NCBI GenBank assembly: GCA_035235625.1
Contig: CP141148.1
Location: forward strand, 32,861,057 to 32,925,056
Direction: 5' to 3'
DNA length: 64,000 nt
Source: Saururus chinensis
Lineage: Eukaryota; Streptophyta; Magnoliopsida; Piperales; Saururaceae
A program made the translations under genes and the position numbers. Under the pieces are notes generated by a model. It searched no databases and had not been told where the DNA came from. It worked only from the letters and a program-made list of their open reading frames with translations. Each line of letters starts with the position of its first letter. The stretch's first letter is position 1. This document shows positions 6,467 through 64,000 of this stretch, in pieces.

Positions 6467-6532
6467 ATAACACCATAACAGCTATGTATAAAAAAACCAC
6501 CATGATAGCCAGTTACTAGCCACCATGGTCGC

Positions 6533-7353
6533 TGTCACAGGAGTGAAGCTTTGCCCAGTGTTCTCACATGTGATGGCCTAGTTGTGGTCCGCAACCAACA
6601 ACCACTCTTTTCCCTTCCCACTTGTATGCGCAAGGGAAAACACAAGTAAAAGGCATAACACAACACAAGTCCGTCCTGGTGCAAGGGTCTCCGCCCAAGC
6701 TATATTTCAGTACGTCGAAATACAATGGCAGGGAGAGGGCAAAGGCTAATCCACCAAGTCTGAATTCTCTCTCTCAGCAACCTGGTTTGTTGTGCATGAA
6801 CAAAACTATCACCAACCAGCCATGGCTGCCCTTGCTCTCCCCCTTAAATAGACTTAGCTTGAATTGGTCGGTCCTTATGCTACTAGGAGTTACAAAACCT
6901 ACCCATACAAGAGTTCTCACCCTGACCAACTCTTAGCTCAACAAGCAGTCTGCCCCCAGCCTAAATCAGGAAACCAAGTGGAGTCTATCTTTAGCTAGAA
7001 GTCCAGTGCCATGCTGCCTCTAAGAGTACTATCCATCCAGGGAACTCACTGGCTCAACTCCTACTTGATCTAGGAGTGCAGTAATCCTACATACGTGAAT
7101 CCTGTCCTCCTTAGAAGTCCATCCCTAAGTCCAAGTAGTGCCTAGCTTCGCTGCTAAAGTCTTGCCCGTGCAAGGACTCCTCCTCAGCCTGCTTCGCAAG
7201 GCGAGTAGTCCATCCGGAACACCTCCCGCGTTGCTCTAGCATCCGTTCATGCCCAAGGGGTTGCCTAGGCTGTTTGTCGCCCAAGCAAACTTGGTTGTCT
7301 CTGCCAAGTAAGGGGGTAGCCGCTTCGATCAGCCAAGGCTTAGGGACTCCACT
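6533..7353 (-). repeat. 3' LTR of the gag-only element
   Basis: It begins TGTCACAGGAGTG on the plus strand and ends near GGGACTCCA at about 7353, next to a pyrimidine run that is the minus-strand polypurine tract. The reverse complement of CTTAAATA at 6843-6850 is a TATA-like box in the minus orientation. The exact inner end is uncertain by a few bases because the two LTRs diverge after about 7321. Confidence 0.8.
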
Positions 7354-7433: not shown

Positions 7434-8323
7434 CTACAAAGGACTCATCCGTGTTAGCTCCTCATGATCGGATTCCTCATTCTCCTCTTCAGCGACAAGT
7501 GAATTTATCCCTTCCCATTTTGGACAGACTTTGGCACGATGTGGCCCATCACATATGAAACAACCACCACCTCTATTCAGCCGGCCAGACTGCTCGTTGC
7601 CCTTGACTTTGCCACCGTTTCCACCCTTGCTGCCCTCCTTGTTGGATGACTTCACTTCCCCATTCTTCTTCGTTGGCTCAGCAGGAGTCTGTTTGAGGTC
7701 CGCCAAGCTATCAGACGCTGCAATCGCTGTGGCAAGGTCCTCCACTTCCCTCCTTCTTAGCTTGTTTTGAGCCCACATTTGCAAGCCCACCATGAAGTAG
7801 AACAACTTTTCATCCTCCCTCATGTTTGTCATGCCCAAAATCAGTGACTGAAACTCCTTAACGTAGTCCTAAATTGCCCCTGTATGCCTCTCGAGCCATC
7901 CAAGACACGTTTTTGGGAAGGAATTGCGCCTCCAACTCCCTCTTGAACATATCCCACGTCCCTATCTTTGGCCGACCTGCAGTTTCATCATCCTCCAACT
8001 GCGTCTGCCACCACAACTTTGCATCCCCTTCAAGGTACATCACTGCCACAATAACCTTCTCCCCCTCTTGGGTATGGACCAACGTGAAGTAGCTTTCCAT
8101 ATCCCAAAGAAAGTTTCCAATCTCCTTGGCGCCTTGCATCCCTGCATATGCCTTTGGTTCAAGCACCTTTGCCTTCTTTTCAACCTGCTAAGATAAAGTC
8201 TCGCCCCCATCTCGAGATGGAGTGTTGAGGACTGCCCGCTTCAACACGCCACTTCATCAGCTAGCTCGCTAACCTTCATTGCCGCTGCCTCCTCTACCTT
8301 TTGCACTCACTGCCTGAGATAGT
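7434..8323 (-). pseudogene. Retrotransposon gag, C-terminal two thirds, broken
   Basis: On the minus strand the gag (Retrotrans_gag, PF03732) domain reads AKLWWQTQLEDDETAGRPKI, then FKRELEAQFLPKNVSWMARE. It is followed by EDEKLFYFMVGLQMWAQNKL and a zinc knuckle CFICDGPHRAKVC (CX2CX3HX4C). Upstream are VLNTPSRDGGETLS and a Q-rich to basic segment. It is inactive: an in-frame TAG replaces a Gln codon near 8190, another stop precedes DYVKEF, and one-base shifts occur near 7880 and 8248. The protein packages element RNA in virus-like particles in this family. Its N-terminal third is at 16770-17019, across the inner insertion. Confidence 0.85.
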
Positions 8324-9434
8324 CCATATGTAAGATCTCTGATCTTCAACCGGTTTTTGTTTCACTTTAATTATCAGTTATCGTAAGGTTAACACGTTTT
8401 CTGATTTATTCGGTGGTTTCAAAGATAGATGGTGTTTCTCATGGTTTTAATCAAAATCAACTTTACAGATAATAGTTTTAAGTGATTTTGAATCAAATGT
8501 GAATTTTTGGGATTTTTTTGAATTTTTACTATTTTTCCGAAAATCAGGTTTGGCGGGACCCCCTGTGGGCCCCACCGTTGAAATTTGGATTTTTGTTTCA
8601 AATGAACCCAGACATCAACTTAAGCCTATACAAAAATTTTCAGAATTTTTTCAGATTTAATTAGTACTCAAATTTGTAAAATACCCATTTTTAACCCAAA
8701 ATTCTACTTACACCCCATTATTTTAGTTAGTGCAAACCCAAACCCTACTATAAAAGGCTAGACCTGAGCTATTTCTATTTTGAAAATAGGCTGAGAAAGG
8801 AGAGGTCAAGCCTAATCCCCAATTAGGCCCAGATTAGAAGGTGTTTAAGGTAAGTCTTTTTAATTGAGCACCAAAACCTAGCTTTTCTCTTAATCTCTCT
8901 AGATCTACCATTTTTCCTTTGTTTTGATTCATTTTTAAACATCAAAACCTACTTATTTGCATCTTTACTTCAAACCCTAGCTCTCAAAATCCAATTTTTA
9001 TGTTCAACAAGCCCTAGATCTAAGTTTTTGATTAGGGTTTTCTTTGTTAAATCGGTTTTAATAGAGTTTAATTCAAACTCTTTGTCTTTGTAAGGTTTTC
9101 AAGAAGGGTGACCATCAAATCCAAGCCTAATCAAGGGATAAGGTAATGGACTTTCGAAATTTCAGTCTTCCTATGGTAAAACTCTTGATTTTGTGGTTTA
9201 TTTTGAATGGTTTTACTTGATTTAAGACTTTAATAGCATGATTAGTAAATGATAATCTTTAATCCCAATTTCATAGGGTTTTATCTTGTTATGATGTGGA
9301 TTAGCATTCTGGAAGTTATGGTGGACTTTTAATGGCATTTAGGTTGTTAGATGGTAATTTTGAGTTTTATCAATGGAGTTTCGGTTTGAAAATGCGAAAG
9401 GAAGAAGAAGATCGAATCTGCCTTGTTGGCATTT

Positions 9435-9525
9435 GAACGGCCTTGCAGGGCGTTCGAACGTCAACACTGTAATTTTGGCACATATCCTGTTTAGCCGATC
9501 GAACGGCCTGGAGGGCGTTCGAACG
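9435..9525. repeat. Duplicated module with palindrome CGTTCGAACG
   Basis: GAACGGCC plus a short spacer plus GGGCGTTCGAACG occurs at 9435-9460 and again at 9501-9525. Each ends in the perfect 10-bp palindrome CGTTCGAACG (9451-9460, 9516-9525) and is followed by a similar CACTG context. It lies about 700 bp after the TATA box of the inner element, so it may be part of a transcribed leader. Its function is unknown. Confidence 0.6.
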
Positions 9526-10605
9526 ACCACACTGCAGAAATTCACAATTTTATGTATGTTGCTTATTTTGACATATCTACTTCAAAATATCATTTTTATG
9601 TTTATGTGGAGTATTTTGATCTATAATAAGCTACTTAAAGAGTATTCTATTGATGTTAGAAGTTGTGGTATATATATTTAGAGTTATGTGGAATGGCTTG
9701 TTTTTTGTTATATGATGTTGAAATTACCATCTTGAAGTTATGAATGGTTGATTCTCTATGGTTAGGTGTATTTTCAGTAGAGCTACAGTATACTAATGGG
9801 CTGATATGTCATGTTAAGATGTGGTTAATTGATGTGTGAATGTTAGTGTTATGTCTTGACTCAAGTATGAAGTGAATGATCTTATATGTGGTTAGCTCAT
9901 GGTTAAGCTTTGATTTGAGTTACGATTTTAATTATTCTTCTCCTATGATTTCCGCTGGAATTCATGATTAGATGTTAATGCTCATGTGTAGTTCAATGGT
10001 GAGTGAATTACAAGCATATAGATATGCATTGAGTGAAGTGCTTCTACTATGTGCACACACACATGTGGGGTTTAATAATGATGATGAGGTTTGCTATTAT
10101 GATTATGAATGATGCATGAAGGGCTGATGAGAGCACCTATAATGAATTAGAATTCATGTATGCTTTGCCCACGTATGTACCATGTTGCATGCATCATGAA
10201 AATGTATTTCCAATTGAGGTTTTATCGTTGGTTAATCGGAATTGATCAGTTGTGTGGAACAGCCGAAGAGAAACCATTAGACACTTGCGGTATAGGACGC
10301 ATTATGTCGATGGATAGCTCTAAGGTTCATTATGCTAGTGCTTAGTTAAATTTGCTTCTATGGCGTCACGAATACTCATGGTATGGGACGTGAGGACTAG
10401 AGTCGACATAGAAGTATCTTTACATGCACACTTCGAGGTGGGTTGAGTCTAGTTAAGTGGATGCAAATGTATTTCCAATTGAGGCTTTATTGAGATTAAT
10501 CGAATTTGATCGATTTGATGCAACGTGGTGAAATTGCGTGCCAGTTTAATCGGTCGTGGCTTAATCGAAACTTGATTGGTTCGAAAGGACATGTTTTCAA
10601 TTTGA

Positions 10606-11096
10606 GTTCCTGTGTGGAACATTGCGGGTTGAGTCTAGAGAAATGGAATTATGTGGGGACAAGTTGTGTACTTGTCTTGCAGATTGAGATTGATATTATT
10701 AGTGTCATCTAGACCCTGAGAATCCAGTGTGGTATGCCGTATTCACCCGCTACCACGTGTTCTAGGGTTCTCTGTGTGGGAACTCGGGCTCTCCCCTCCG
10801 CAAGAGATGTCCTTGGGCAATCACCCCTGCTCTAGATTCTCTGTGTGAGAATGAGACATCCTTGGCCAGGATCGTCTAGGGCGAGCAGCTTTAAGGATTG
10901 ACAACCCCGACTCTTTTTCATTTCCTGTGTGGAAATTTGACCATGTTATCGCCATCGTGGCCTTGACCGTGTTCTTGCCTGTGTGGCAATGCTTGTGTTT
11001 ACTCCTTGATGGAGGCATTCACCATTTGTATTGATGCATGTCTATTATGAATGCTATGCATGATTGTGTATCATGTGGTTGACACGTTTGTCGTGT
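10606..11096. repeat. Cluster of mini-hairpins sharing a TGTGT loop
   Basis: Seven hairpins have the loop TGTGT and stems of 5 to 7 bp. They lie at 10606-10620 (GTTCC/GGAAC), 10658-10676 (GACAAGT/ACTTGTC), 10767-10783 (GTTCTC/GGGAAC, one wobble) and 10836-10852 (ATTCTC/GAGAAT). Three more are at 10920-10936 (ATTTCC/GGAAAT), 10975-10989 (TTGCC/GGCAA) and 11059-11075 (CATGAT/ATCATG). An eighth at 11082-11096 has loop TTTGT and stem ACACG/CGTGT. The stems differ but stay paired. They lie in non-coding DNA of the inner element, just before a 56-bp tandem array. Confidence 0.75.
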
Positions 11097-11105
11097 AGGG
11101 TTAAT

Positions 11106-11503
11106 GTGGTTTATATGATGTTATGCATGATGGGATATGTATGTTAGAGGTACATTTTATGCAGGTTGATATGATGTGAGGCATGGTTGGATATGTATGC
11201 TAGATATACATTTCATGCAGGTTGATATGATGTAATGCATGATTGGATATGTATGTTAGAGATACATTTCATGCAGGTTGATATGATATGATGCATAGTT
11301 GGATATGTATGCTAGAGATACATTTCATGCAGGTTGATATGATGTGATGCATGATTGGATATGTACGTTAGAGATACATTTCATGCAGGTTTATTTTATG
11401 TGATGCATGGTTGGATATGTATGTTAGAGATACATTTCATGCAGGTTTATTTTATGTGATGCATGGTTGGATATGTATGTTAGAGATACATTTCATGCAG
11501 GTT
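11106..11503. repeat. 56-bp tandem array, about 7 units
   Basis: The marker GCAGGTT or its equivalent recurs at 11161, 11217, 11273, 11329, 11385, 11441 and 11497, an exact 56-bp period. Units contain GGATATGTATGTTAGAGATA and TTTCATGCAG. Two adjacent units share TTTATTTTATGTGATG, suggesting recent local duplication. Non-coding, inside the inner element. Confidence 0.9.
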
Positions 11504-12765
11504 GTTATAATGAGAATGACACTATGTGGATTATACACTATGATGCAGGTTTAGGTGATGTGTCTGTGGATCAGGAAATGATACATCTTGTCAATCATTG
11601 ATCTGAATGATTATATTGTTATGCTATCGTATTTCCGATGATGATAGTTATATTAAAAATCATTGCTGAGTTTGTTAAACTCACCCCTCTTTATTGTATT
11701 TTTGCTTTGGGGCTGCGTGGTGCGACACGCAGACGGGCAGGATCTCCTCTTTGAGGAAAAATCGGAGACGACTTGGATGTGATCGTGAAGACTCTTATGC
11801 GACTTATTTTCTTTAGTTTATGTTTTATGTTTAGAACCTTTGTGTATGGTTCTCTGTTGGATTTATGATACTTTATACAGTTGTGTTGATTAAGACCTAT
11901 TTTGGAGCCTAGAATGGGCTATGGTTGACTAAGAATGTGGGTTTGAGACTAGTCATTTATTTTGAGTTAAGCGACTCTCTTTCTTTTCTACTTATTTACT
12001 CTTGCTCAAAGAAATGTGCGTACTCTGTAATTCTATTAGATTGCCCATATTTAGGGTTAAGTCTTCCGCTAAACCTTCTCTCAATTTCCCCTCGTCGTTG
12101 TAACACCCAAGATTTTTCATACATTTTTCTTAAAATTCACGAAAAAATTTTGCAATATAACATCTGTAAATCGGAGGAAAAATGACGAAATCAAAACCGG
12201 ATAAAACAGTTTATAATTTAAAACAGAAAACATCCACTTTCCATCTAAATATTTCTATCTAAATATTTTCATCATACGGTTAAACATTGTACGGCCAAAG
12301 CAAATATCATCAGGTGCTACTCAAAAACACACGTACGACTAAATTGCTATGATCATAGACTTTAAATACAAATCTCTCCCAGACATTCCTGAGTGCAAGT
12401 CCCATAACAGTCCACAGACTAATCCAAACAAAAGTCCTAAATAAACATCTAACTTCTCATCTCACTCAATACAGGAGATCGTGGCACAAATAAACTCGCA
12501 GTGAGTAAAGCAAATACTTAAGTCAACGGGGAATCAATCCATCGCTGAAATGAGCATCCCTCCCCAGGAGTTCTCCTCACAAACCTGCAAAACCTCCCGT
12601 ACAACGGGGCTAAAAATTAGGGTAATGAGTATTTTCATACTCAGTAGGAAAATACCCAGTAGGGGAAAACCCAAACGATGAACTCAATAAGTTCATAAAT
12701 GCATGCGTTCATGCAACTCAAACATGAAGCAGATAGGCATATCAATATCATGCTCATATGCATAC

Positions 12766-12999
12766 AGTCATACCAAATGCACCATCGTGCCAAAATCATA
12801 CCAAATGCACCATCGTGCCAAAATCATACCAAATGCACCATCGTGCCAAAATCATACCAAATGCACCATCGTGCCAAAGTCATACCAAAGGCACCATCGT
12901 GCCAAAATCATACCAAATGCACTATCGTGCCAAAGTCATACCAAAGGCACCATCATGCTAAAGTCATACCAAATGCACCATCGTGCCAAAATCATGCCA
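12766..12999. repeat. 28-bp minisatellite, 8 units
   Basis: Units containing CCAAATGCACCATCGTGCC start at 12773, 12801, 12829, 12857, 12885, 12913, 12941 and 12969, a 28-bp period. Because 28 is not a multiple of three, it opens repetitive frames in all three phases. These are not genes. Copy B of the surrounding unit has no array at the matching place. Confidence 0.9.
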
Positions 13000-14520
13000 T
13001 CAAATTGAACTTACACAAGCACCCTTATCCAGGGTCTTACAAACTTACTCGTACCACCGTACGCTTACTCAAACAACATATACATACTTGTACGACCTTA
13101 CTCGTACAACTTACACAAAATCACACTTACTGTCTTACTCAGAAACATACTCTTACAATCGTACTCATACACATACTCTTATAGTCATGTTCATACTCAT
13201 ACGCTTACAGTCGTGCTCATACTCATACTCTTACAGTAGTGCTCACACTCATAATCGTACACATATCAACGACCACTGAAGCTCATTACAATTAATAGGC
13301 TCCAGCGTCGAAATGGAAATGAATGCCACTGGGGCAACACCTTAACCTCCGAGGACTGACTAGACGTCATGGACTTTTCCGAAGGTAAGGCACACCAATG
13401 CTCATGGGGCACTGGATCAAACAAGTAAGAGTAGATCCATGATACTGCTTACCTGAGCGCGCAAACATAAACACCCACACATAAGGGGTCATACAGTTGC
13501 CCACCATAATGGGTCTTATAGTGCCAATGCCACTCTTGGGCAGAAATCATACAGTGCCACTTGGGCAGAAACATACAGTGCCACTCTTGGGCGGAAACAT
13601 ACAACGCTCTCAACAGAGCATCAAACGTCTGGGCTTATACATCATGCAGACCAAATCAAAAACATGCGTCTCTCTCAGCAGAGCATCAGACGTCCGGTGC
13701 TCTATACAACACACAAACAACATCCCGTAGGATAAACACCATGGCAAGACATGAGAAATGCTCGGCCGACTCATTAGCGGCCAGCTCAAACACGGAACTT
13801 AATCCGTCGAACCCTCAAGTCTCAAACTCACAACACTATCATTAATTGTGCTTATAATTCAAGTTTGAATTAAGTATATTATGCGGTACAATTATGCCAC
13901 ACAAACTCACAATCCTCGACTGATCAAACCGAAGCTGAGCCCAATCAAAACCCTAGTTCATTAGGGCAGTAGACTTCACTTACCCGTCCACATCATGGAC
14001 AAAACTCATCGTACATCAAAATCCTTACGGTCTTACAATCTCCGCCATCTACCTTATGGCCAAATCATCTTACTGACATCATCAAATGAAGCTCCTCAGA
14101 GCCAACCCAGTTATCGCCCTCTTACTTATATCTCACTTATTATGTTTACTTTTCACTTCATAATCTGTACGTTATGCTTGTACAATTAGGCACACTCTTA
14201 CTGTCTGACAATCACCTAACATACAATCCAACCCAAACCGATCCATTCTAATCCTTGCCCGTCATAATCATAACCTCTGACATCCATCATATGCTTACAC
14301 ATCCGTATCCAAATCCATACCAACCACTGATACTTCTTACCATCCATAGCTCATACCTCTGCCCACATCCACATACACATATCCATAGCATAGTCAAATA
14401 GTCATCATACATACGTATGTCTATCACACATATGTATAACATACACATACTGCCATACACACGAAGCTTACAACCATGCTCACTAGTCATCACTAGTGCA
14501 TACATACATACGTCAAACAT

Positions 14521-14760
14521 ACATGCTAGCCATCACTAGCACATGCATAATCTAAACATACTCCAAACATGCACGCTAGCCATCACTAGCACATGCATAA
14601 TCCAAACATATGTCAAATATACACGCTAGCCATCACTAGCACATGCATAATCCATACATACTCCAAACATGCACACTAGCCATCACTAGCACATACTCAA
14701 TCAACATACAAAACTTACCAACAAACACGCTAGTCATCACTAGCACATACTTACATCCAA
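14521..14760. repeat. 50-bp tandem array with CTAGCCATCACTAGCACA
   Basis: The motif GCTAGCCATCACTAGC recurs at about 14525, 14575, 14625 and 14675, with a diverged copy near 14728. A related array lies in copy B at about 59530-59611 and 61030-61290, where a hAT element has split it. Each unit contains a short inverted repeat, GCTAG...CTAGC. Confidence 0.85.
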
Positions 14761-16343
14761 CATACTTACAGCCAACATGCATGTCATATGCATTTCAACA
14801 TACCATATAATCATGCTTACATGTACATCATGCAATCGGATCGTTACTTAACATTCAAAGCATGGAATCATACAATCCTAGCATGCTGCTACTCATTCAA
14901 AGCATGCTATCATGAAATTACGAATTCAAAGCTCCCCTACCTCGTAATCATGATGTTCGATGGCGAGCACACGACGGTGGCGGCGTCAGTAGCGGAGTTG
15001 GCGGCCAAAACCATTGCCTGGATGAGAGAGCTCTGTCCCGAGGATTTTAGGAAGTGTCGGAAACAATCACGGCCAAACGGGGTGTCAGAAATCAATGCGG
15101 AAAAACCCGCAATCCACGGTGGCACACTAGGGTGGCCGGGAGAAATATCATGCCAACATATGTGGCGGTGCGACCAGAAGTCGATGGTGTACTCACTAAA
15201 GATGGGCCGGTGGCTAAGACTTGCTCAGCCGGCCACAAGACGTATAAATCGGTCGTGGACAGCACCCAACGGCGACGATTTTGGTCAGCAAAGGCCCACA
15301 TAAGGGCGGAGAGCGTGGGGCAACGCTCAAGAACAAAGGAGAGGTGGTGGAGGCTCTAGTGGTCAACTCCACTCGGTGGCAAAGCCAACCGATGGTCAGG
15401 CGGCGTGAATGCGGCGCCTAAACCCAAAAGCATTTGCGTGGCCACATGTACACGCGACCCAAAGGGGCGGGGGAGAGGGCTGAAAGGAGGCAACCCAAGG
15501 CCCATAAAAGGCCAACAGGGCTAAGGCCCTAGCGGTGGCCAATCAAAGCGGCGACATCGCCGATCGCCACCCACAACCAATACCCATGGTGCGGGTGGCT
15601 GTGCATCTCGCACGGTATAGGGCAAAGGCAAGCGGCCCACTCCAAGCGGACATATAATCGGGCCTAGTGGGGCTGACCCTCACTGTCGCCAAGCCAAGGC
15701 AGAGCCCACGATGGCCAGATGGCCTACGGCTCGCCGATGGCAATGACCCAAGACGCACCCAAAGCGTCTAATCGGGTGGAGCAATACAATAGGGCGAAGC
15801 GGGGTCGAAAACGGTAAACCCCTATCTACACCGGGTCGAGGTAGGCTGGACGGAGTCCTTTCGGTGGCCAGATGACAACTGGAAACCCACCAGCATCCAA
15901 AAAATCCCACGGACAGTGAGATGGAGAATGAGAACAAAACCCGACCAAAGTGTCGGTAGCTCACCACGGAGCGAAGAAAGCATGGCGGCGGCTCTAGCTA
16001 GCGCCTATAGGTTCCTAGCGGCCAACTAAACATAAGTCTAGTTGAGGGTGGCCGTAAACGATGTCAAAATCGTACACCCACAGTTCAAAAACGGGATTGA
16101 AGGAGAGAAAAACCCGAAAAAATGTTCGGTACCTCGTAGAGGGGCGAAGAGGCCGTGGTAGCGGTCATAGCCGGTACCTACGGACTCGTGGCGGTGAGGC
16201 AAGGAGGATCTCGATAAGAATCTATGAAAATCTGATGAAGGAGGAGGGAGAACGGAGCGATCGGATATGCCCTCGGGTTTTCTCACAAAACCACTGGACG
16301 TGAAAAAAGTTTATGGGCGTCAGTCCTGTGAAATCCGATGGGT

Positions 16344-16347
<4 letters not shown>

Positions 16348-16378
<31 letters not shown>

Positions 16379-16403
16379 TATATATATATATATATATATA
16401 TAG

Positions 16404-16438
<35 letters not shown>
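16348..16438. repeat. Compound (TA)n microsatellite with GT interruptions
   Basis: Three blocks of alternating TA are separated by single TAGTTA interruptions. The matching place in copy B (about 62700) has no TA run, so the array arose or expanded in copy A only. Confidence 0.9.
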
Positions 16439-16440
<2 letters not shown>

Positions 16441-16769
16441 ATCTTTTTAATTTTTATTACATCTACATCCCTAATACGCGTTCACCCACTGGTTACGCGT
16501 TATAGCTCCAAACTTTCCATCGTAAGCGCGCAGCGAGGCCCACGGCCCCCGACTAAGCCCCACAGCCAACTCTATGGTATAAATATGGGGTATATATACA
16601 TAAATATGAATACGCTGTAGTGTCACATTTTCCCGCCGAAAATGACTAGAAAAATAGCAGGAAAATCCAAAAAATTGTAGAAAAATCAGGGACCTTATAG
16701 TCGCCCCCGCGTGCTTGACCGGCCCTTGGACCGGGTTCGGCTCGGGTCGGGCAACGCCGGGGCGTGACA

Positions 16770-17019
16770 CCATCGTTGCAACCACATCAGCCTCTAATGT
16801 GGTGAGATGGGCTGCCCCTTCAGCCGTACTACCTTCTTCCTAAGATTCGTTAAGGTGTAGTGCGACTTCAAGCAAGGACACTTGTTGGTTGAAGAAGTCC
16901 AAACACTCATTGATGTTGCGCAAAGAGGTTTGGACTTCAGCCAACGTCCCATTTGTAGTGGCCATTGCATCCACCTTCGCCTCGATCTCAACAATTTGAG
17001 CCAACATTGAGGCTACCAT
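16770..17019 (-). pseudogene. Retrotransposon gag, N-terminal third, broken
   Basis: The minus strand from ATG at 17019 reads MVASMLAQIVEIEAKVDAMA, then TLAEVQTSLRNINECLDFFN and VSLLEVALHLNES, a heptad-like stretch that looks like a coiled coil. An in-frame TAG follows NES, then the frame continues to EADVVATM and stops at the inner insertion. It continues at 8323 as DYLRQ. The LTR and the possible primer-binding site lie just upstream on the minus strand, as expected for a gag start. Confidence 0.75.
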
Positions 17020-17214
17020 TAGTGCTCTCTATTTTCCAGCAACTCATCAAGGTAAGGTAAGCACGCAACAAGGATCTCCAATCTGTTCAGCGGCAACCTG
17101 TCAAGGAATTCGCCTATTCCGGGTATCCTCACGACTCAACAACCTTCAACCAACTCCTTCGCAGAGACCGTACAGAGCGTTTACATCTTTTAGTATCCTA
17201 GCAATGGAACCAAC

Positions 17215-17998
17215 TGTCACGGGTGCGAAGCTTTGTCTAGCGTTCGCACACGTGATGGCCTGGCTATGCCGCGCAACCAGCAGCCACTCTCTTCCCTTCC
17301 CACTCATATGCGCAAGGGAAAACACAAGCAAATGGCACAACACAACACAAGTCTGTCCTGGTCCAAGGGTCTCCGCCCAAGCTATATTTCAATACATCGA
17401 AATACAATGGCAAGTTGAGGGCAAAGACTGATCCACCAAGTTTGAATTCTCTCTCTCAGCAACCTGGTTTGTTGTGCATGAACAAAACTATCACCAACCA
17501 GCCATGGCCGCCCTTGCTCTCCCCTTTAAATAGACTTAGCCTAAACTGGCCGGTCCTTATGCTACTAGGAGTTACAAAACCTACCCATATAAGAGTTCTC
17601 ACCCTGACCAACTCTCAGCTCAACAAGCAGTGTGCCCCCAGCCTAAATCAGGAAACCAAGTGGAGTCCATCTTTAGCTAGAAGTTCAGTGCCATGCTGCC
17701 TCTAAGAGTCCTATCAGTCTGGGGAACTCACTGCCTCAACTCCTACTTGATCTAGGAGCACAATAATCCTACATACGTGAATCCTGTCCTCCTTAGAAGT
17801 CCATCCCTAAGTCTAAGTAGCACCTAGCTTTGCTGCTAGAGTCCCGCCCATACAAGGACTCCTCTTGCGCTGCTTTAGCATCCATCTATGCCCAAGGGGC
17901 TGCCTAGGCTGTCAGTTGCCTAAACAAACTTTGTTGTTCATTGCCAAGTAAGGGGGTAGCTACCCCCTTTTCCCATTCGACAAGTTAAGGGTCTAATA
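17215..17998 (-). repeat. 5' LTR of the gag-only element
   Basis: It begins TGTCACGGGTGCG on the plus strand and runs parallel to 6533-7353 through AAGTAAGGGGGTAGC near 17960. Its outer end is decayed, but GTCGC at 17999-18003 matches the duplication at 6528-6532. By recombination rules this is the upstream LTR of a minus-strand element. Confidence 0.8.
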
Positions 17999-37264: not shown

Positions 37265-37718
37265 GGGCAGAAGCTTTCGTTAATGACACACCACCGCCTT
37301 CTGCCGAGACGATTGTGCTGTTTTCTGCAGCGGTTGTGTTTTCTTTCTCTTAGCGAACTGGTAAACTTTAGTCTTCCTCCTGGCTTTTATTTTTTTAATT
37401 CAAAATCTGCATGACCGCATCATTGTTTTTGTCCTAAATTTTTCACTGTGCCTTAACTTTAAATTACAATTCCTATTGGTGACCAACTGATTGTTTTAAG
37501 TAATAAACCAATATTATATCCTCATGGTGATATTCAAGAGATTTAACCTTTTGGGTAAATTTACTCGTGATGGTCATTATTTCAGATGATCGATCTGTGG
37601 CATCGGTTGTGTTTCTTAATATTGATTCGTATGCTTTATGTATTTTAATATTTATTTTACAGTCAATTAACTTAGTGATCCTTGTGGATGAAGTGTGTTG
37701 CAAATAGGGTGTTCATCC

Positions 37719-39875
37719 ATGTCTTCTTTGAGATGCTTAGGAGGTGGAAACCCACCGGGTTCTCATCTGCCTGTCCCTCAGCCGGCTCCTTGGTTGACCT
37801 TCTCCAGTGCACAAGGGAAAGAGGAGTGGACTTTCTACAATGTCATAGACAAGAGCTGCGAGGAGCGACTCATATCCAGTGTTAGTGACACTGATCTTTT
37901 GATGTCTTCTCATGGCTGGTGTCTGCTGCGTGATAGAGGCTCCGAAGAGATTTTCGTATTCAATCTCATCTCATTAGAGACCATCCATGTCCCACCTATT
38001 AACCCCCATGACAATCACACCAAATTCACCTATTTCTTTTCGTTGCCACCTTCTGACCCTGATTGGTCCCTCGTCTGCATTCATCGATTTGATCACTACT
38101 TTCTGATATTTCGCCCCGGTGACAATGAATTCACAAAGCATGTATTCCAGTTTCTTGAAGCACAGGATATAAGTGGTGTTGTTAGTCATGGGGGAAAAGT
38201 ATTTGCAAGAACATGTTACAGAGACGTTGTGGTGATTATAGACCCTTTCCCAGACGTTAGAGTGGAATATCTCGAAATAGATATGCCCAAAGTCCCCAGA
38301 TTAGGTAGATTCAGTCGAACTATTCGTCTCGTAGAGGCATGTGGGGACATTTTCCTTGTCGATCAAAGTGATTATCTTGATTCAGATATATTGCATCATA
38401 TTGAGGTCGCAAGATTGGATTTCTCCAAGAAGGTCTGGGTGAGAGTTGACAGCATAGGCGATCTCATTTTCTTCCTAGGGTCTGACTACTCAGTGGCATG
38501 CACAGCTTCTGCAGCCAACATCAAAGGAAATTGCATATATATAATTGATACTATTGACAAGAAACTAAATCGCTATGACTTGGAGTATGGAAGCTTGACA
38601 GTTGATTATCCAATTCCCCCCTTTGAAAGATGTCCTGGCGATGTACCTCACTGGGTAAGGTTTCTTAGCTATTCAGTGTTTTTTTTCCCCTCTTTTCTTT
38701 CTTCTACTCCTTGCTATGATGTTTGTGGCATTATAGAAGGTTAAGAAGAATGAGTAGTGTTATAATGAGATACATGAAGATAATAGGCTTCATTATTAAC
38801 ATGACTTGTTTGTTTTGTGCAGGTTTTAGTAAATCAGGGCATTGACGAACAAAGTGGTAAGAACAATCACATTAAAGAAGACCAACATCAAGAGGGAAGT
38901 GTGGTGGTAAGCCCCCTGCAAAGTTGTGTTGTCAATAGTGGCAGGGATTTTACCCTGAGTCAACAGCGAACCCCTGGAAGAGGGTATCCCAAAAATCCTT
39001 GGCTCATGTTGACTCATAAGAATAGTGGCATTTATAAGTTGGTAGACCCAATGAGTGACGAGGCTTGTACTCTCAGCATTCCGGAGTTATCGGGTTCTAC
39101 ATTGTATTTCTCTCGAGAGGGTTGGTTGATAGTGCACAAGACCCCTCAAGTCATGTTCTTATTCAATCCCTTCACGAATGATAAACTTGAACTCCCCGTT
39201 GTAAGGTTTTCAATGCCGGTCTTCTATGGAATTGCCTTCTCGTCTACACCTACTTCTCCAGATTGCATGGTTTTTGGCATTGTTGATGCAGATGAGGATG
39301 CAGTTAATGTTTGTTTTTACCGTTGTGGGGATGAGGAATGGACACAACTGGTGTTCCCAAATTATCACAACTTTTGTGCTTCTCATAACAATCCTGTCTT
39401 CCACAATGGGCTCTTCTACTGCCTGGGTTTGGAGGGGTCATTAGGGGTGTTTGACCCTGAGAAGCTAGCATGGACTGTTTTGAGCTTATGCCCAGATTTT
39501 GATTTCGAACAAGTCGAGAGGTATTTTCTGCTTGAATCTGATGGCAAACTCCTGGCATTTTTCATGGATCAGTTTGGCTATCCGCATGGGCAATTCCGGC
39601 TTGATGCTGATGGAAGTAGATGGGAAGAGGTGAGTGATTTTGGAGATAGAACACTATTTCTTGGCCAAAGTACTTCTTTTTCTATACCAGCACCCGACCA
39701 GGATATGGAGAACTCAATTTGTCTGCCCAAGTTCGAGGGAGAATATGATTACGATGATCCCATAATCATAGGCCCCAGGGAGTCTGGAGATTCTTCTTCT
39801 GTTATATACTACAAGCATACAGAGTACCTGCTCAACATTTGGATTGAACTGCCCAAGAGTATTGACACGAGTTAG
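37719..39875 (+). CDS. Protein with two tandem DUF295 regions, no F-box (662 aa)
   Basis: Exons 37719-38654 and 38823-39875 (CACTGG|gtaagg and gtgcag|G) join in frame. I chose the ATG at 37719 because the frame upstream has no earlier ATG. The first region, residues about 60-310, reads SSHGWCLLRDRGSEEIFVFN, then WSLVCIHRFD, GGKVFARTCYRDVVVIID, VARLDFSKKVWVRVDSIGDL and FFLGSDYSVAC. The second, residues about 360-650, reads NPWLMLTHKNSGIYKLVDP, REGWLIVHKT, VMFLFNPFTNDKLELPVVRF, HNGLFYCLGLEGSLGVFDPE and LFLGQSTSFSIP. Both follow the DUF295 (KIB1-4) plan. DUF295 proteins often carry an N-terminal F-box and act in ubiquitin ligases (KIB1 targets BIN2); here no F-box is visible, so this role is uncertain. 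The intron falls exactly between the two regions. The gene looks intact. Confidence 0.85.
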
Positions 39876-53658: not shown

Positions 53659-55489
53659 AAATATCACCTATTCCCATGTGTTCTTCTTTTTGTTCGGCGT
53701 ATTTTTAATGGGGAATATAGAAAATGCTAATGGGGAATATAAAAAATACTTTCGAACCTCACACAATTATGGAGACCATTCTTAATACCTTCATTGGGTG
53801 GAGCTAAAATTATGAAGGGTTGCTGGGGCCATTAATCTGGATGAATTGTGCTAGTGTGGATGGGGGATGGGGCATCCATGTTGCTGTCTCAGAGGTGCCG
53901 GGGGGAAATCAAGAATTATTCAATGTATAATTTGTAGATTGCGGATGAGTTGATTGAAATCTTTAGAAGTCACTTTTTGCACATGCCTTGTGGCTTAAAT
54001 AAACTGGCATATCTATCTTGTTTACTACTGCCTATCCGTATTGATCAAGTTTCTTTCTGAGCAAGAATTTTTAGGAACAAATTACCTACCATATCTGTCA
54101 AGTATATGAATATTTGTTTGTATTATGTACTTTCCAGGTCCAAATAAAGGACCCCTTGGCCCATTATTTGGTGCACCCCTAAATTTTAGTCAGATCATAA
54201 AGCCTGACCCTAAATTATAAAAAAAAAGATATTACTATATAAAGCACGAAGGGTGATGATAGATTTTATCAAATTAGTTATATTACCCTATATTTCCAAT
54301 AATGCCCTTAGGTGTAAATTTGAATGCATATGTGGTTTAGGTGCATATTTTAGACTTCAAGTTATCATATTATAATGATATTTTCTTAGATGAATATCAT
54401 GTGTTAGCTTGATAGTTGATATTAGAAATGACACATGTCCTATTTTTATAGAGCTTTTTCCATATTACCTAGCCAAAGATGTAAATATTCTATATTCCCT
54501 GGTTTTTCACAAAAATGCCACTGAACCCGGACTTACACGATCTTAGAAAATTTTTGGATAGAAATATTGTTGGGTTAGGGTTTAGGGTTTTATATTGTGT
54601 AACCCCGTTACACCATTGCATTTACACGCAAATGACTATATCGATTGGCAATTTCGATAGACTAATCAGTGAGAAGCGAATACGTAGTGTGAGTTCTGAT
54701 TTTCAAGCCATCCCACTGGCGATTTCTAAAAAACAGACAATTGATTTCCAAAGTGCGATAGGTGAGACGCAAAAAACTCCGCAACATCCAGTTTTTCTTG
54801 TTTCCGAAAGGCAATCTTGAAATATTTTGCCCTAAAGCAAGTTTTGGCTGTGAAATGAGGTTCTGTCCGAATGTATATTAACAAGATCCTAGTAAAGCAG
54901 TGAACTGTGGCAAAAATCACCAACCAATCAAGGGGTTAATCTGGCTCAGATTAATTTTGTGATAAGGGCTTTCTCTAGCTCTAAAGTGTATGTTCATACA
55001 CATGATTTTTCATATATCGTGTTATGGAACACACTACGTAGTTACTACTTTCATCTCCTCAATAGTTTGTTGTGTTATCTAGTATATGATATGAAATATA
55101 TCATGTTATTGTTAATACGATATACAATATAGATGCCCTCCTATCTTGTATGCATATCATACATAACATATTATGAATAACATGATATGCGAAAAATGAC
55201 ATCCAATTTTGTACTACCATGTTTGAGAAGAACTTATATCATTTATCTAATAACACGATATATGAATTTAGTGTATATTTGGACATTAATTACATAATAT
55301 GAATCAACGCGACTCTTTGATTTTGGTCACGACCCATTACTAATATATATATGTATAACATCTTTTATAGACAAAGAGCTATAAGAATATAGTCAAATGA
55401 CATAATCATTAAAGGCATCAAAAGAGAAGAAGAAGAAGAGAATTTATAAGAGGAGACCGGGTCTTCAAACTACTGCTTAATTTATGGGT

Positions 55490-55508
55490 GGGGGGGGGGG
55501 GGGGGGGG
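55490..55508. repeat. Run of 19 G
   Basis: An uninterrupted G run. The matching place in copy 1 (about 35470-35490) has short G runs broken by A and T. Such a run may form a G-quadruplex and is prone to sequencing and assembly error. Confidence 0.95.
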
Positions 55509-55912
55509 AATGTCATTATACATTCATTAATGACCCAAAAAATGACCTCTTAATTTACATTAATAAATGAAAAAATTACCTTCTGTTTAATCAAAAGACA
55601 AAAAATGTTTGCATTGAAAAATGAAATAAAAGGTAAAAGTCTCCGAATCAGTCTCCCCGCTCCCCCCGCTACCACATGTTGGAGCTCCACATTTCCTTAT
55701 AGAATTTCTCTACACCCAATTTTTTTCCTATGCAGGACTAAGTAGGACCAGTTGATTTATAATCTAAGTAGGACCACGTAATTTATAACTTTTAAAGGCC
55801 CTTTAAGGTGGATTTGACATTTTATACTAGTGACGTGACCCAAAAATATTTCACTTTAAAACCCAAAGTGGTAGCCAAACGCCTAAATCTCCCTCTTAAA
55901 AAGCGAATTTGA

Positions 55913-57386
55913 AAAGTTCCCACATATTTGGAAACTAGTATAATTTAAGCGAAAATTTTCCCTCCAAGAGAAAATAGCTTTAGATTGAAAGACTTTAAAT
56001 TTAAATTAGGGAATAGGTTTCTCTTATAAGCCATAGGTAATGGGTTTACAAGTGTATAACTTCTTAGAGCCCGCTACTCAAAACCCATCACCTTGAACAA
56101 CCAACATCATTACCAAGACCCAATCCTTCCGGAGGTTCTGCTTTGCCTCCCTCTAATATGAAGGTTTTACTAAAGTTCAAGTCATTGTACCATGAATTTC
56201 GATTTCTCATCTTTTTTTGCAAGAGTTACCATTTCTCATATTTGTGCCATTTTTTAACCTTTTTTCCCTCACCCTCATGTCGCCCTCCATTTGATCTAAT
56301 AACCTCATGGCTTCTACTGTATAGTTCCCAAGGAATAACTTTTTTGCTTGATTAGCCAAGCCATCATTAATCAAACTCTCCCGCTCTTCTTCCTTATGTC
56401 CATGTTGTTAAAATGTATGTGGCTATATATATATTGTATTGACTTATTTCAATGAATAAAACAATGTCAAATTGATGTGTAATTTGAGTCATAAGATATG
56501 ATAAACAAAACAATACTAAATTGATGTGTAAGTTGAGTCACAAGATAGAATATTTGCTGCTCAATATCACCTGATGAAGATGAAGTAAATCAAAAGACCC
56601 AGAAGTGTTTTTTACAAGTAAAAAGACACACACACATCACATGTATACATTTAGGATAAAAGGGTTTATCATATAAGAGTGTGAAAAGAATGAGTGAAAA
56701 ATTGCATATGTAAATTTTTAATCCAAGATTATCGGTAAGAATTTTAATTTTTTGGCACTATAGTAGTATCGAAGCAAATCACTATAGCAGTTAATGTTCA
56801 TCCATTGATAGATTCTTATAGTAGTTTTTAGAAAATTTGATAGAGACTATTGCGATCGATTGATGATCAATTATTGTAATGATCGATTGCTAGAATCCAT
56901 AATTTCTAAAAATAGGTCATTATGAGTTAAATTTGATTCCTATTCATAGTCTAACACATAAACTGACTTAGTTATCTATATAAGGAGTGTTTTGAATATA
57001 GGAAAAGAAGAGAAAAATAATTCTAGCATAGTGAGAGATTGATGAGTCTACTTTATTGGGTTTTAAGAATATAGAGTTTTCCTTTGGCTATATACTTTAA
57101 AAATGAATTCAATTAGTTAAAAGCGAAGAAAAATTCACAACACAACACATACAAGAGTTGGAGGAGTTGCAATAAAATTTAATGAGAGATTGAAGACTCA
57201 AGGCAAAAGTCATAAATAAGAGGAGATTGTATGAAGTGATTATAATGAGACAATGAAAAAGTAAGTAGAAGAAAAGTTTCAAGGCTTGAGGAAAAGACTT
57301 AAAGACTAGTAACAAAAGAAGTTTGAGGAGATCTAAACAAAGGGGGTTTTGGGTTAGAGTCTCAATAAAGGTTGGTAGTTTGCTTA
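55913..57386. other. Intergenic, no gene recognised
   Basis: AT-rich. Small diverged repeats are present (for example AAATTGATGTGTAA near 56471 and 56519). The minus-strand frame at 57109-57429 is hydrophobic from composition and has no recognisable motif. Confidence 0.5.
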
Positions 57387-60300
57387 TGTAATACTTAAAA
57401 TTTTTCATCATATTTTCTTCAAAATTCATGCAAAATTTTTGTAATATAATGACTGTAAATCGAAAAAATGATGAATATGAAACCTGTGAAAGTAATTTTT
57501 ATAATTTAAAATATTGCACATCAGTTTTTCCCATATAAATTTTTACTCATTCGATCAAACATCATATGGTCAAGCGAAACATCCTCAAGCGCTACTCGAA
57601 AATAAACATACAAATAAATTACTATAATTATAAATTTTAAATATAAATCTCTCTCAGGCATCCCTGAGTGCAAGTCCCATAATAACCCAATCCAAATTAA
57701 AAGTCTAGAAAGCATACACTTTAATTCTTATCTCATCCAATACATCACATCATGACACAAATAATACTTGCAGTGAATCCAAGATATACCTAATTCAAAG
57801 GGAATCAATTCACCGTAGAAACGAGCATCCATCTCCAAGAGCTCTCCATGACAAACCTACAAAAGCCTCCCGAACACAGGGCTAAAAAAATAGGGTAATA
57901 AGTATTTTCATACTCTGGAGGAAAATACTCAGTAGGGGAGTTGTAAACAGTGAACTCAGTAAGTCTACACATAAATGTGTTAATGCAACTCAAACATGAA
58001 ACAAGTAGATATATTATAATCATGCACGCATACAATCATGCCAAGCACACAATCAAACCAATCTACGTATACACTCTTAATCAGAGTCTTACAAACTTAC
58101 TTGTACAATCGTACACTTACTCATACAACTTACACATACTTGTACAACTGTACTCATACAATCTTACTCGTACGACCTTACTCGTACAATCTTACTCATG
58201 AACATACGCTTACTGTCTTGCTCAGAATCATATTCTTACAGTTGTGCTTAGAATCATACTCTTACGGTCATGTTCATAATCATACTTTTACAGTCGTACT
58301 CAGAACTTACACTTACTCAAAAACATATGTGTTCACTCAAACAATCGTACACATACTATCGACCACTGAAGCTCATTACCATTTATAAGCTCCAGCATCA
58401 AAATAGAAAGGGATGCCACTGGGGCATTACCTTAACCTCCGGGGAATGACTAGACGTCATGGACTTTTTCAAAGGCAAGACACACCAATGCTCATGAGGC
58501 ACAGGAACAAATAGGTAAGAGCAGTTCCATGATACTATTTACCTTAGCACACAAACGTAAACACCCACACATAAGGGGTTTTATAGTGCCAATGCCACTC
58601 TTGGGCAGAAATCATATAGTGGCACTCTTGGGCAGAATCATACAACACTCTCAATAAAGCATCAAACATCTGAGCTTAATACAACACACAAACCAAATCA
58701 AAAATATACATTGCTCTCAACATAGCATCATACGTCTGAGGCTTAATACAGCACATAGGCAACATCTCGTAGGATAAATACTATGGCAAGACATGAGAAA
58801 TGCTCAACCGACTCATTATTGGCTAGCTTAAACACGGAACTTAATATGTCGAAACCGTCAGATCTCAAAGTCACAACGCTATAATTAGCTTTGCTTATAA
58901 TTCAAATTTGAATTAAGTTATGTGGTACAATTATGCTACAAAGATTCACAAATGTACAGTGCTCCACTGATCAAACCGAAGTTGAGCCCGATCTGAAAAC
59001 CTAGTTCGTCAGGGCTGCAAACTTTACTTAACTCATCCATCTCATGATCACAACTCACCATACACCAAAATCTTACATATTCATACAATCTCCTCCATCC
59101 ACCTTATGGCCAACACATCTTACTCAGAAGTCATCAAACTAAGCTCCCCAGAGCCAAACCCAATTATACCCTCTTACTTATACTTCACTTATTATGCTTA
59201 CTTTTCACTTCATAAATTATATGTTATGCTTGTACAATTATGTAACAACTCTTACTGGCTGACAATCCCACAACATACGCTGTATTCCAAGACAAACTAA
59301 TATGATCCACTCTAATCCTCGCCCGTCAAACTTACATTAGTCATCTTTCATCATACGCTTGCACATCCACGTCCAACTCCATACTCTATCACCGCTTACA
59401 GTCCATCACCAATACATATGCTCCACACACACATACACATATCCATTGCATAGGCATATAGACATCATATATATGTATATCCATCACACACAAGTATTAC
59501 ATACACATACTTTCATGAATAGCTTACTAACATACTCACTAGTCATCACTAACACACACATAATCCACATACATTAGCATACCATCGTACTCACTAGTCA
59601 TCACTAACACATAGGGGTGTTCATGGACATGGACGGACGCGAACAGATGCATATCCATGTTCGTCCACCAATTATATAAATATTGTCTGTGTCCGTTCGT
59701 GTCCGATAATGTCCGTAGCGTATGTTGTCCAAGTCTGTCTGTCACAGACATGGATGGACACAGACGGACATGGATAATTCAGTCAAATCCATGTCCAGTA
59801 TTAATACCTAACAAAACTTCTATAATCTTAGAATATAGCTATTAGGCCATCAATTACATCATAGATGAACTTTCAAGTGTCCTCTTGATCTGCATAGAAG
59901 TTCTGTTGAGCTATATTCTCCTCTTTGTATGAAGTCTTTTTTCCAACAAATACAACATCAGAGGAGAAATGAAGATAAGTCTTTTGAAAAAACTACAATA
60001 ACGAGACAGATCATTAATAAAAGTTGGTATGGTTCTTGATAATTTACAATATGACATAAAAAACATATATCCAAACGGAAATCATCACGAGATGCTGCGA
60101 TTTGGAAATAAAAGTTCCAGACTTCCAGACGAATCAATTTGAGATGATGTCTGAACCAAATGTTCTGGCGTGTAATGCCATGATCGCGTGCTGCACGAAG
60201 AAATGTTTGAACTAAAAGTTGTGGTGTGTAATGCAGACTCAAGTTTAAATCAAAGTCATTATGTAGGTATCATCATTTAAAACTGTATCCTGACGATAAG

Positions 60301-63010: not shown

Positions 63011-64000
63011 CTTATGTCGATGTAAAGTCTTGCTTGCTAGTGTATTGACTTGGTCATAGATAGACAGCCGTAGCTTTTTATCCTAGTTGGGGTTTTCCAT
63101 ATAAAAAATCCTTGTGTGTTCTTGCATGTTGTATGGGTCGATTGATGATAGAGTGATCATGAATGTGTAATAATTAAGATTTATCATTTTTGTTGGTCAA
63201 TTTAAATTCGTGCATATAGAAGCTAGAACTCTTAATTGCTTACTTGTTAAAGTACTAGGGTAAGGAGCAATCTAGTGATCCATTAAGCCATCTAGACGGA
63301 TATTAAACTTGCATGATCTACCTTATTGCTACCATTAATCCTTGATTAAAGTACCTTTAAGGGCCATGAGATTGACTTGTTGAAGTATTGCCTTTGGGAA
63401 ATTCCACTGAGGCTTGGTGCGCCATTAAAGAAGCTTTCTAGTGTGTTTTTGGATCAATTTGAGGTAGGTTAAATTAGATCTTCGTTGTTGTTTGATAATT
63501 ATGTGATTTTAAGTAGGGTCTTTAGGGTTTAGAATTCTTGCATTACAATATGATAAAGAAAGGAAGTTTTCAATTGTGATTATTATAAGATCTCTAACCT
63601 TAACTTGGTTTGATTTTGAATTAATTATGTGATTATTGTGTGGTTTTCATTTAATTTGCGGGTTTGACTTTTTTGGAGGTTAAAGGATGATAATGATGGT
63701 TTTAATAAGGTTTTCTATCATCTTTATAAGTTTCTATATCAAACTCAATTTATCCTATTTTTAGGGGATTTTTTGGATTTTGTGGGATATTTTCTTAAAT
63801 TTAGGGTGTAGGCCCCACTATGGGCCCCACATTCACATTTGAATGGTGAGGGTCCCACGAGACCTTAAACTTCTCTAGAAGACTTCTTATAAGACCAAAA
63901 CAAATCATCAACCTCTCTAGAAGACTCTTAACACAAATTCCCTCTTGCTTAGATCTCCTTCTCTTTTTGTTTCAAGCCTTCATGTCTTCTCCTCTAAGCC
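63011..64000. other. Flank after copy B, probably repeat-derived
   Basis: AT-rich and non-coding. From about 63584 it shows weak collinear likeness to the start of the inner element at 8329 (TAAGATCTCT, later GGGCCCCAC). No gene is visible up to the window edge. Confidence 0.4.

Follow-up and report, generated by a model that had tools for sequence, protein, structure and literature searches.

Interchangeable stems around a constant TGTGT loop: a probable RNA hairpin array in the long terminal repeat of a plant Ty3/gypsy retrotransposon

Introduction

Why should a few hundred base pairs of plant DNA carry hairpin after hairpin with the same five-base loop, each on a different stem? The question is raised by a stretch of 64,000 nucleotides from Saururus chinensis (GenBank assembly GCA_035235625.1, contig CP141148.1, positions 32,861,057 to 32,925,056 of the forward strand), which was analysed as a whole and is called the window here; coordinates are those of the window. 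A sequence-only reading had noticed in it seven TGTGT pentamers between self-complementary arms that change on both sides together. It had proposed that this reflects either RNA structure or a process that writes inverted copies around TGTGT. We asked which of these explanations fits the locus and its many genomic relatives, and what such an array might be for.

Results

A cluster of TGTGT-looped hairpins

The seven TGTGT loops with arms of 5–7 bp lie on the + strand between 10606 and 11075, where they had been reported. Six of the stems are perfect over 5–7 bp, whereas the seventh, around the loop at 10773–10777, contains one G-T pair (ttcTc/gGgaa) and forms a 6-bp stem in the window copy only if G-U is allowed. 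In order, the hairpins are H2 (gttcc-TGTGT-ggaac, 10606–10620, 5-bp stem), which is a tandem with a 23-bp period in part of the genomic copies; H3 (gacaagt-TGTGT-acttgtc, 10658–10676, 7 bp), whose pair 4 is A-U in the window copy; H4 (gttctc-TGTGT-gggaac, 10767–10783, 6 bp including the one G-U); H5 (attctc-TGTGT-gagaat, 10836–10852, 6 bp); H6 (atttcc-TGTGT-ggaaat, 10920–10936, 6 bp); H7 (ttgcc-TGTGT-ggcaa, 10975–10989, 5 bp); and H8 (catgat-TGTGT-atcatg, 11059–11075, 6 bp), which is confined to the clade of copies that includes the window (clade A, below). An additional hairpin with a TTTGT loop follows at 11082–11096.

The concentration of stems is local and specific to one pentamer. The + strand of the window contains 80 TGTGT, seven of them within a perfect stem of at least 5 bp; such stems flank six of the eight TGTGT in the array region and one of the 72 elsewhere on that strand, and on the − strand one of 122. 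TGTGT is also the sole pentaloop (stem of at least 5 bp) that exceeds two occurrences on the window's + strand, with seven against two for the runner-up. Shuffling preserving dinucleotides had been suggested as a control. In 5000 such shuffles of the 525-base region, a single TGTGT hairpin arose in 11 and two or more in none, compared with the six perfect hairpins observed, and no pentamer of any sequence looped two hairpins. These shuffles rule out a chance origin. A search of Rfam with window positions 8300–16900 returned no match at the gathering score, and we rejected a known RNA family as the identity of the hairpins.

Hairpins with other loops had been claimed at 11713–11732, 11745–11757 and 11833–11853, and all three exist. 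The last (agaacc-TTTGTGTAT-ggttct, + strand) has a related loop and is also found in the homologous long terminal repeat (LTR) of another locus, L053. Upstream of the array, a hairpin ttccaTGTGTtggaa is missing from the window copy and present in 11 of 92 aligned sequences.

Two further features of the region were observed. Inside the array, at 10863, a hairpin with a different loop (atcct-TGGCC-aggat) is identical in the window and L053 LTRs. Directly downstream, at 11108–11512, lies a 56-bp tandem repeat of 7.2 copies; five of its units contain a perfect 6-bp hairpin, atgtat-(7-base loop)-atacat, and two of these align with L053.

The array lies in the LTR of a high-copy Ty3/gypsy element

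The array had been placed in the non-coding part of a large retroelement. This was borne out in kind, with the correction that the sequence is an LTR, and that in the window this LTR stands solo and is divided by a nested element. Its first part, at 8329–12098 on the + strand, begins with TGTAAG and was delimited by homology to several loci, among them L053 and L054, whose LTRs form a pair with 98.8% identity. It is interrupted at about 12098 by the nested element and resumes at 16700–16769, ending in GGGGCGTGACA; this terminal part is 91.4–97.1% identical to the LTR ends in L039/40, L041/42, L053 and L054. The 5′ boundary is TG, and the flanks, ccata and ccatc, look like a decayed target-site duplication. 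No primer site was found after the window LTR (16769 on). Because of these flanks and the lack of a following primer site, we take the window LTR as solo.

The coding part of the family was read from L053 and L060, the latter being the next stretch on the same contig. In L053 the LTR end is followed by tggtatcggagc, which we take to be a primer-binding site of the initiator-Met tRNA type, and then by a frame with protease and reverse transcriptase (RVP_2 and RVT_1 domain matches). L060 adds RNase H, Integrase_H2C2 and SH3_Tf2-1, together with an rve match of 18.7 bits, below its cut-off; the last frame of the element matches Ty3 Gag-Pol (7q5b) as an integrase, and its residues 253–297 match the chromodomain PF00385 at 24.5 bits (E = 2.6e-5), just under the cut-off of 25.1. 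A purine tract and the end of the integrase frame lie just before the 3′ LTR of the L053/L054 element. LTR, primer-binding site and pol thus follow one another on one strand (L053, L060), TG..CA LTRs, primer site and purine tract before the 3′ LTR were all read in L053 and L060, and protease, reverse transcriptase, RNase H and integrase stand in Ty3/gypsy order across the two loci. By these features the host is a high-copy Ty3/gypsy element, probably of chromovirus type. The three frames searched in L053 and L060 gave no match to a gag family, and no CCHC motif was found in either locus; in the first frame of L053 the protease match already begins at residue 66. We take the missing gag as a probable loss in the one element read, not as an absence from the clade.

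Other elements were encountered in the course of this analysis. At 1456–4038 of L039 (− strand) lies a sibling Ty3/gypsy element whose LTR end differs. It has two CCHC zinc knuckles and a reverse transcriptase frame; a search for loops recurring with at least two different stems found no TGTGT array beside it. A second LTR-type family, starting TGTAACACCC, occupies 12099–16699 and 57387–63007 of the window, its longer pieces being 74–78% identical. It carries two hairpins at shared positions, each differing by one compensated pair (accct/agggt versus actct/agagt; cgtac/gtacg versus tgtac/gtaca). Loops recurring with at least two stems did not include TGTGT on either strand of the nested element (12099–16300) or of window 55001–64000. 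A direct repeat (6532–7320 and 17214–17960, 85% identical) brackets the solo LTR with its nested element, and two adjacent frames with a KIB1-4 beta-propeller domain lie at 37695–38744 and 38817–39875.

A predicted promoter would place the array in the leader

A TATA box, CTATAAAAGG, marks a predicted promoter at 8748–8757 on the + strand, at about LTR nucleotide 420. Every copy retrieved with a 400-base stretch that includes the box has it (23 of 23), and the genome contains 2738 matches to the spaced promoter pattern, against none for the reversed control. Directly after it, at 8766–8792 on the + strand, a hairpin gagctatttctattttgaaaataggct covers the predicted start site. Ten copies of this hairpin all fold, with paired changes on both sides (for example atttcc/ggaaat and attccc/gggaat); they were hand-chosen from 100 listed promoter matches on contig C1, with a search pattern that fixed the outer 3′ arm.

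The TGTGT loops fall at LTR nucleotides of about 2018–2480 in L053 and 2280–2735 in the window. The array therefore lies about 1.6–2.3 kb downstream of the TATA box, with 0.9–1.6 kb of LTR still to follow and the primer site beyond that. Should transcription start from this box, the hairpins would be part of the R-U5 leader and on its sense strand.

A further explanation concerns polyadenylation. Plant far upstream elements of polyadenylation are UG-rich, and UGUGU exposed in loops might be such a signal, setting the end of R. There is indeed no AATAAA near the array: the window LTR has none up to 12100, and the L053 LTR has one, at nucleotide 98. A polyadenylation signal would, however, leave both the stems and their spread over 470 bp unexplained, and we regard it as very improbable.

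Sampling of genomic copies

The genome searched comprises 516 Mb in 11 contigs. Both H2 and H6, the latter in its clade A form, contain a 13-mer, TTCCTGTGTGGAA, that has 5183 occurrences in this genome, compared with 23 for the reversed control. With the 521-base array region as query, 4333 candidates were returned, and scores were computed for the best 40. We aligned 92 sequences and kept for the tree the 81 in which all of H3–H7 were readable; L002, L004–L009 and L039 were left out as duplicates or overlaps, and second matches in L055 and L038 as weak. The sample is not random, because its members were found either through the 13-mer pattern on contig C1 (many copies) or through similarity to the window (40 copies, 30 of them fetched).

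Among the distinct TGTGT contexts of the fetched sequence, stems of at least 5 bp flank 134 of the 917 that belong to the LTR family and eight of the 481 outside it; five of these eight are the H1 stem of the family itself and, as far as can be told, sit in LTR parts beyond the two query LTRs. Genome-wide, the 15-mer TTCCC-TGTGT-GGGAA (paired C/G form) occurs 559 times and TTCTC-TGTGT-GAGAA (paired T/A form) 4440 times, each with a control of 0, whereas the T-G form of the same 15-mer occurs 32 times (control 3). These counts are no test of a single site, because the T-A form pools H5 and the clade B form of H4.

Two stretches were examined as candidates for a more diverged subfamily, which was rejected: L201 is 86% identical to the window and 82% to L053, and in L200 the part excised was not homologous. 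Viral contigs were scanned twice with 15-base hairpin patterns, which returned 50 and 48 stretches, with two TGTGT hairpins at two loci. L189, the one locus of these two that was examined, was taken for a chance match and rejected as an array outside the host genome.

Stems change on both sides between copies

The constant loop with stems that change on both sides, first seen within the window, recurs between genomic copies. Five or six of H2–H7 are kept in 78 of 81 copies, counting a hairpin as kept when at least four of its five inner pairs form, G-U allowed. Over the inner five pairs of H2–H7 in the 81 copies, 88.4% are Watson-Crick in register, and sliding the partner arm by −3 to +2 lowers this to 20–32%. 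A second Watson-Crick type that differs on both sides in at least five copies was seen at five of 30 pairs, compared with 0–1 of 30 when the arm was slid.

The copies form two clades, A (37 copies, including the window) and B (44), which differ in which hairpins they carry. The H8 loop reads TGTGT in 32 of 37 clade A copies and in 0 of 42 of clade B, and the H1 loop in 0 of 43 of clade B. The number of hairpins is therefore not fixed, H1 and H8 being features of clade A.

Among the 36 stem pairs of H2–H7 (pairs 1–6), 34 pair in the majority of clade A if G-U is counted as a pair. Clade B retains 27 of these unaltered, and four have changed on both sides and still pair: H4 pair 2 (C-G in 32/37 of clade A, T-A in 39/44 of clade B), H6 pair 1 (C-G in 31/37, T-A in 42/44), H6 pair 5 (T-A in 33/37, A-T in 44/44) and H7 pair 2 (C-G in 33/37, T-A in 43/44). 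One more differs on a single side and keeps its pairing, with G-U in one clade. The remaining two are unpaired in clade B, one after a change on the left only and one after changes on both sides. H7 is weak in clade B, where 37 of 44 copies have C-T at its pair 5; at its pair 4, compensatory in part between clades, 19 of the 44 have C-G and 21 have C-A. The C-A form may be a product of methylation decay, since the C-G form makes a CpG.

Assuming that the six changes in left arms and the six in right arms are independent of one another, and that a third of joint changes give a pair, at least four compensated pairs have P = 5.8e-5; most of the compensatory changes belong to a single deep split and so amount to few independent events. 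Counted branch by branch, joint changes of Watson-Crick type numbered four in H4, with one more at H2 pair 7. As the deep split is at the root, where parsimony divides it, this count is blurred and we used the comparison between clades instead. A rarer form of H4, gtttcc/ggaaac, was seen in one copy.

Paired changes could also be made by mutation, with template switching during reverse transcription or replication copying one arm into the other, and old duplicates of one TGTGT hairpin being corrected later, arm against arm and without selection. Such correction would likewise yield paired changes, and the 23-bp tandem unit of H2 in part of the copies implies that duplication does occur here. 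By eye, though, the flanks of H3–H8 share no common unit, and the loop has been kept, although correction needs no given loop. We consider a mutational origin improbable, a judgement to which the wobble pairs described next also contribute.

Fixed wobble pairs and the question of strand

Pair 4 of H3 is G-U in 84 of 89 copies (by clade, 33/37 in A and 44/44 in B), and pair 6 of H4 is G-U in 36 of 37 copies of clade A and one of 44 of clade B. Fixed G-U pairs suit a sense-strand RNA and suit neither a DNA dyad nor arm-to-arm correction. Of the two alternatives offered by the sequence-only reading, RNA structure is the better supported; a process writing inverted copies fits less well, because the G-U at H3 pair 4 has persisted, uncorrected, in both clades.

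The same pair bears on the possibility that the motif acts as double-stranded DNA, with transcription or integration controlled through cruciforms or dyad binding sites. Clustered palindromes near the promoter are found in Sirevirus LTRs, according to the accessible part of PMC2829016, which describes motifs of this type as a mark of transcriptional activators. A dimer site would nevertheless conserve its half-sites, whereas in this array it is the spacer that stays constant while the half-sites change. The fixed pair, as G-T in DNA, breaks dyad symmetry in nearly all the copies just counted, and the array lies far downstream of the TATA box. A role as DNA is in our judgement quite improbable.

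Scattered mismatches were less informative. Counted by hand over pairs 2–5 of H2–H7, leaving aside H3 pair 4 and H7 pairs 4–5, G-T and A-C mismatches number 37 and 32, and being about equal they give no strand preference; adding H7 pairs 4–5 brings the counts to 39 and 68. The T-G form of the 15-mer above, which RNA could tolerate, is likewise rare genome-wide. Predicted folding of 12 drawn copies, with one to eight perfect stems per hairpin, did not tell the strands apart, antisense pairing being as high or higher for most hairpins. Since both strands fold, folding was discarded as a proof of strand. It is the position of the array and the fixed wobbles that support the sense strand.

The loop is conserved between clades

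The two clade majorities agree at every loop position of H2–H7 and differ at 53 of 354 flank columns. Without selection and at the flank rate, the probability that all 25 loop sites of H3–H7 remain unchanged is about 0.017 (0.85^25). An alternative loop, TATGT, occurs in 6–14 copies of each of H2–H7. Within the clades, the ratios of internal to terminal changes are 7/52 for loops, 17/102 for arms and 122/693 for flanks, with no clear slowing of loops or arms on internal branches, as expected if most copies are dead. When the window and L053 LTRs were compared in 40 blocks of 100 columns, the three blocks of H4–H6 were 84–86% identical; of the remaining blocks one was 88%, one 83% and the rest 0–81%, the low values being due to indels.

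Discussion

From the wobbles, the compensated pairs and the constant loop, we hold it highly probable that the array is a selected structure of the sense-strand RNA. Its constant loop, interchangeable stems and multiplicity lead us to propose a multivalent platform, and on balance we favour a protein-binding array of this kind, with somewhat less assurance. The stems would mainly hold up the loop, and their sequence could drift by paired changes because they mainly serve to present it. The UGUGU loops, transcribed within the R-U5 leader of the genomic RNA, would then be several binding sites for one single-strand RNA-binding protein.

Because the array sits in a predicted retroelement leader, the first candidate for this protein is the Gag nucleocapsid with its zinc knuckles. 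The nucleocapsid of HIV-1 has a preference for TG-rich single strands. Bound in this way, the array might mark the RNA for packaging into virus-like particles, as the dispersed packaging signals of RNA viruses do, and the copy read, in which no gag was seen, would then need a helper. Packaging, dimerisation and replication had all been proposed as roles; any of them may apply, and packaging is our leading reading. Gag-driven packaging as the function of the array is nonetheless a tentative assignment, somewhat short of an even chance. The complete reading, in which sense-RNA hairpins present UGUGU to a single-strand RNA-binding protein, most likely the Gag nucleocapsid, for packaging, is put forward as a working proposal that we do not quite expect to hold in full. 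More speculatively, interchangeable R-U5 mini-hairpins that each offer UGUGU to Gag might constitute an undescribed RNA recognition code of plant LTR retrotransposons, in which the number of hairpins would grow by 23-bp tandem duplication while the stems are free to drift. If true, such a code would let gag-less copies be carried by a helper.

The same anatomy would be expected if the hairpins were read by a host protein and not by Gag, and the sequence does not favour the host protein over Gag. CELF-type proteins bind UGU-rich RNA, and CELF/Bruno-type UGU-binding proteins on the loops would keep unspliced leader RNA out of translation; alternatively the array could be a nuclear export or stability element. 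The structured leader of cauliflower mosaic virus recruits export factors, according to the accessible text of a review (PMC12786077), which calls it unclear whether plant LTR elements have leader motifs that do so. We think a host reader unlikely and keep Gag as the preferred candidate.

How plant LTR retrotransposons select their own RNA for packaging or export seems to be little known; the accessible text of the same review names no RNA element for this choice. A compact array of one loop with paired stem changes is a concrete candidate, and the thousands of natural copies in one genome are a data set for RNA covariation. Among the literature matches listed, we found no earlier description of such hairpins (in the accessible part of PMC3601003, among others) and no mention of the 13-mer TTCCTGTGTGGAA in their text; most subscription papers were outside the scope of this search.

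Comparison with known systems

Like cauliflower mosaic virus, the element described here is a plant reverse-transcribing element with a long, in its case predicted, structured 5′ leader, and an array of hairpins with one loop is not described for that pararetrovirus leader in the accessible text of PMC12786077. Sirevirus (Ty1/copia) LTRs also contain clustered symmetrical motifs, mostly with a CGG-CCG core, varying intervening bases and a position upstream of the TATA box (accessible part of PMC2829016). By contrast, the array belongs to a Ty3/gypsy element and combines a constant spacer with varying arms downstream of the TATA box. We rejected membership in the Sirevirus motifs, as the arms differ from hairpin to hairpin, there is no CGG-CCG core and the element is Ty3/gypsy.

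Retroviral psi leaders have nucleocapsid-binding stem-loops with exposed G/U loops in a leader position near the primer site. The array shares the exposed G/U loops and the (predicted) leader position near the primer site, but it lies upstream of that site, inside R-U5, and repeats several loops of one sequence.

In the dispersed packaging signals of single-stranded RNA viruses and hepatitis B virus, such as those of MS2 and the RGAG loops of HBV, several stem-loops share a loop motif while the rest varies (accessible parts of PMC6281560 and PMC7612645). The array has the same three properties: several stem-loops, a common loop motif and variable stems. It differs in that it is clustered in 470 bases of an LTR, whereas those signals are spread genome-wide, in that its protein partner is a putative one, and in that its host is a plant retrotransposon.
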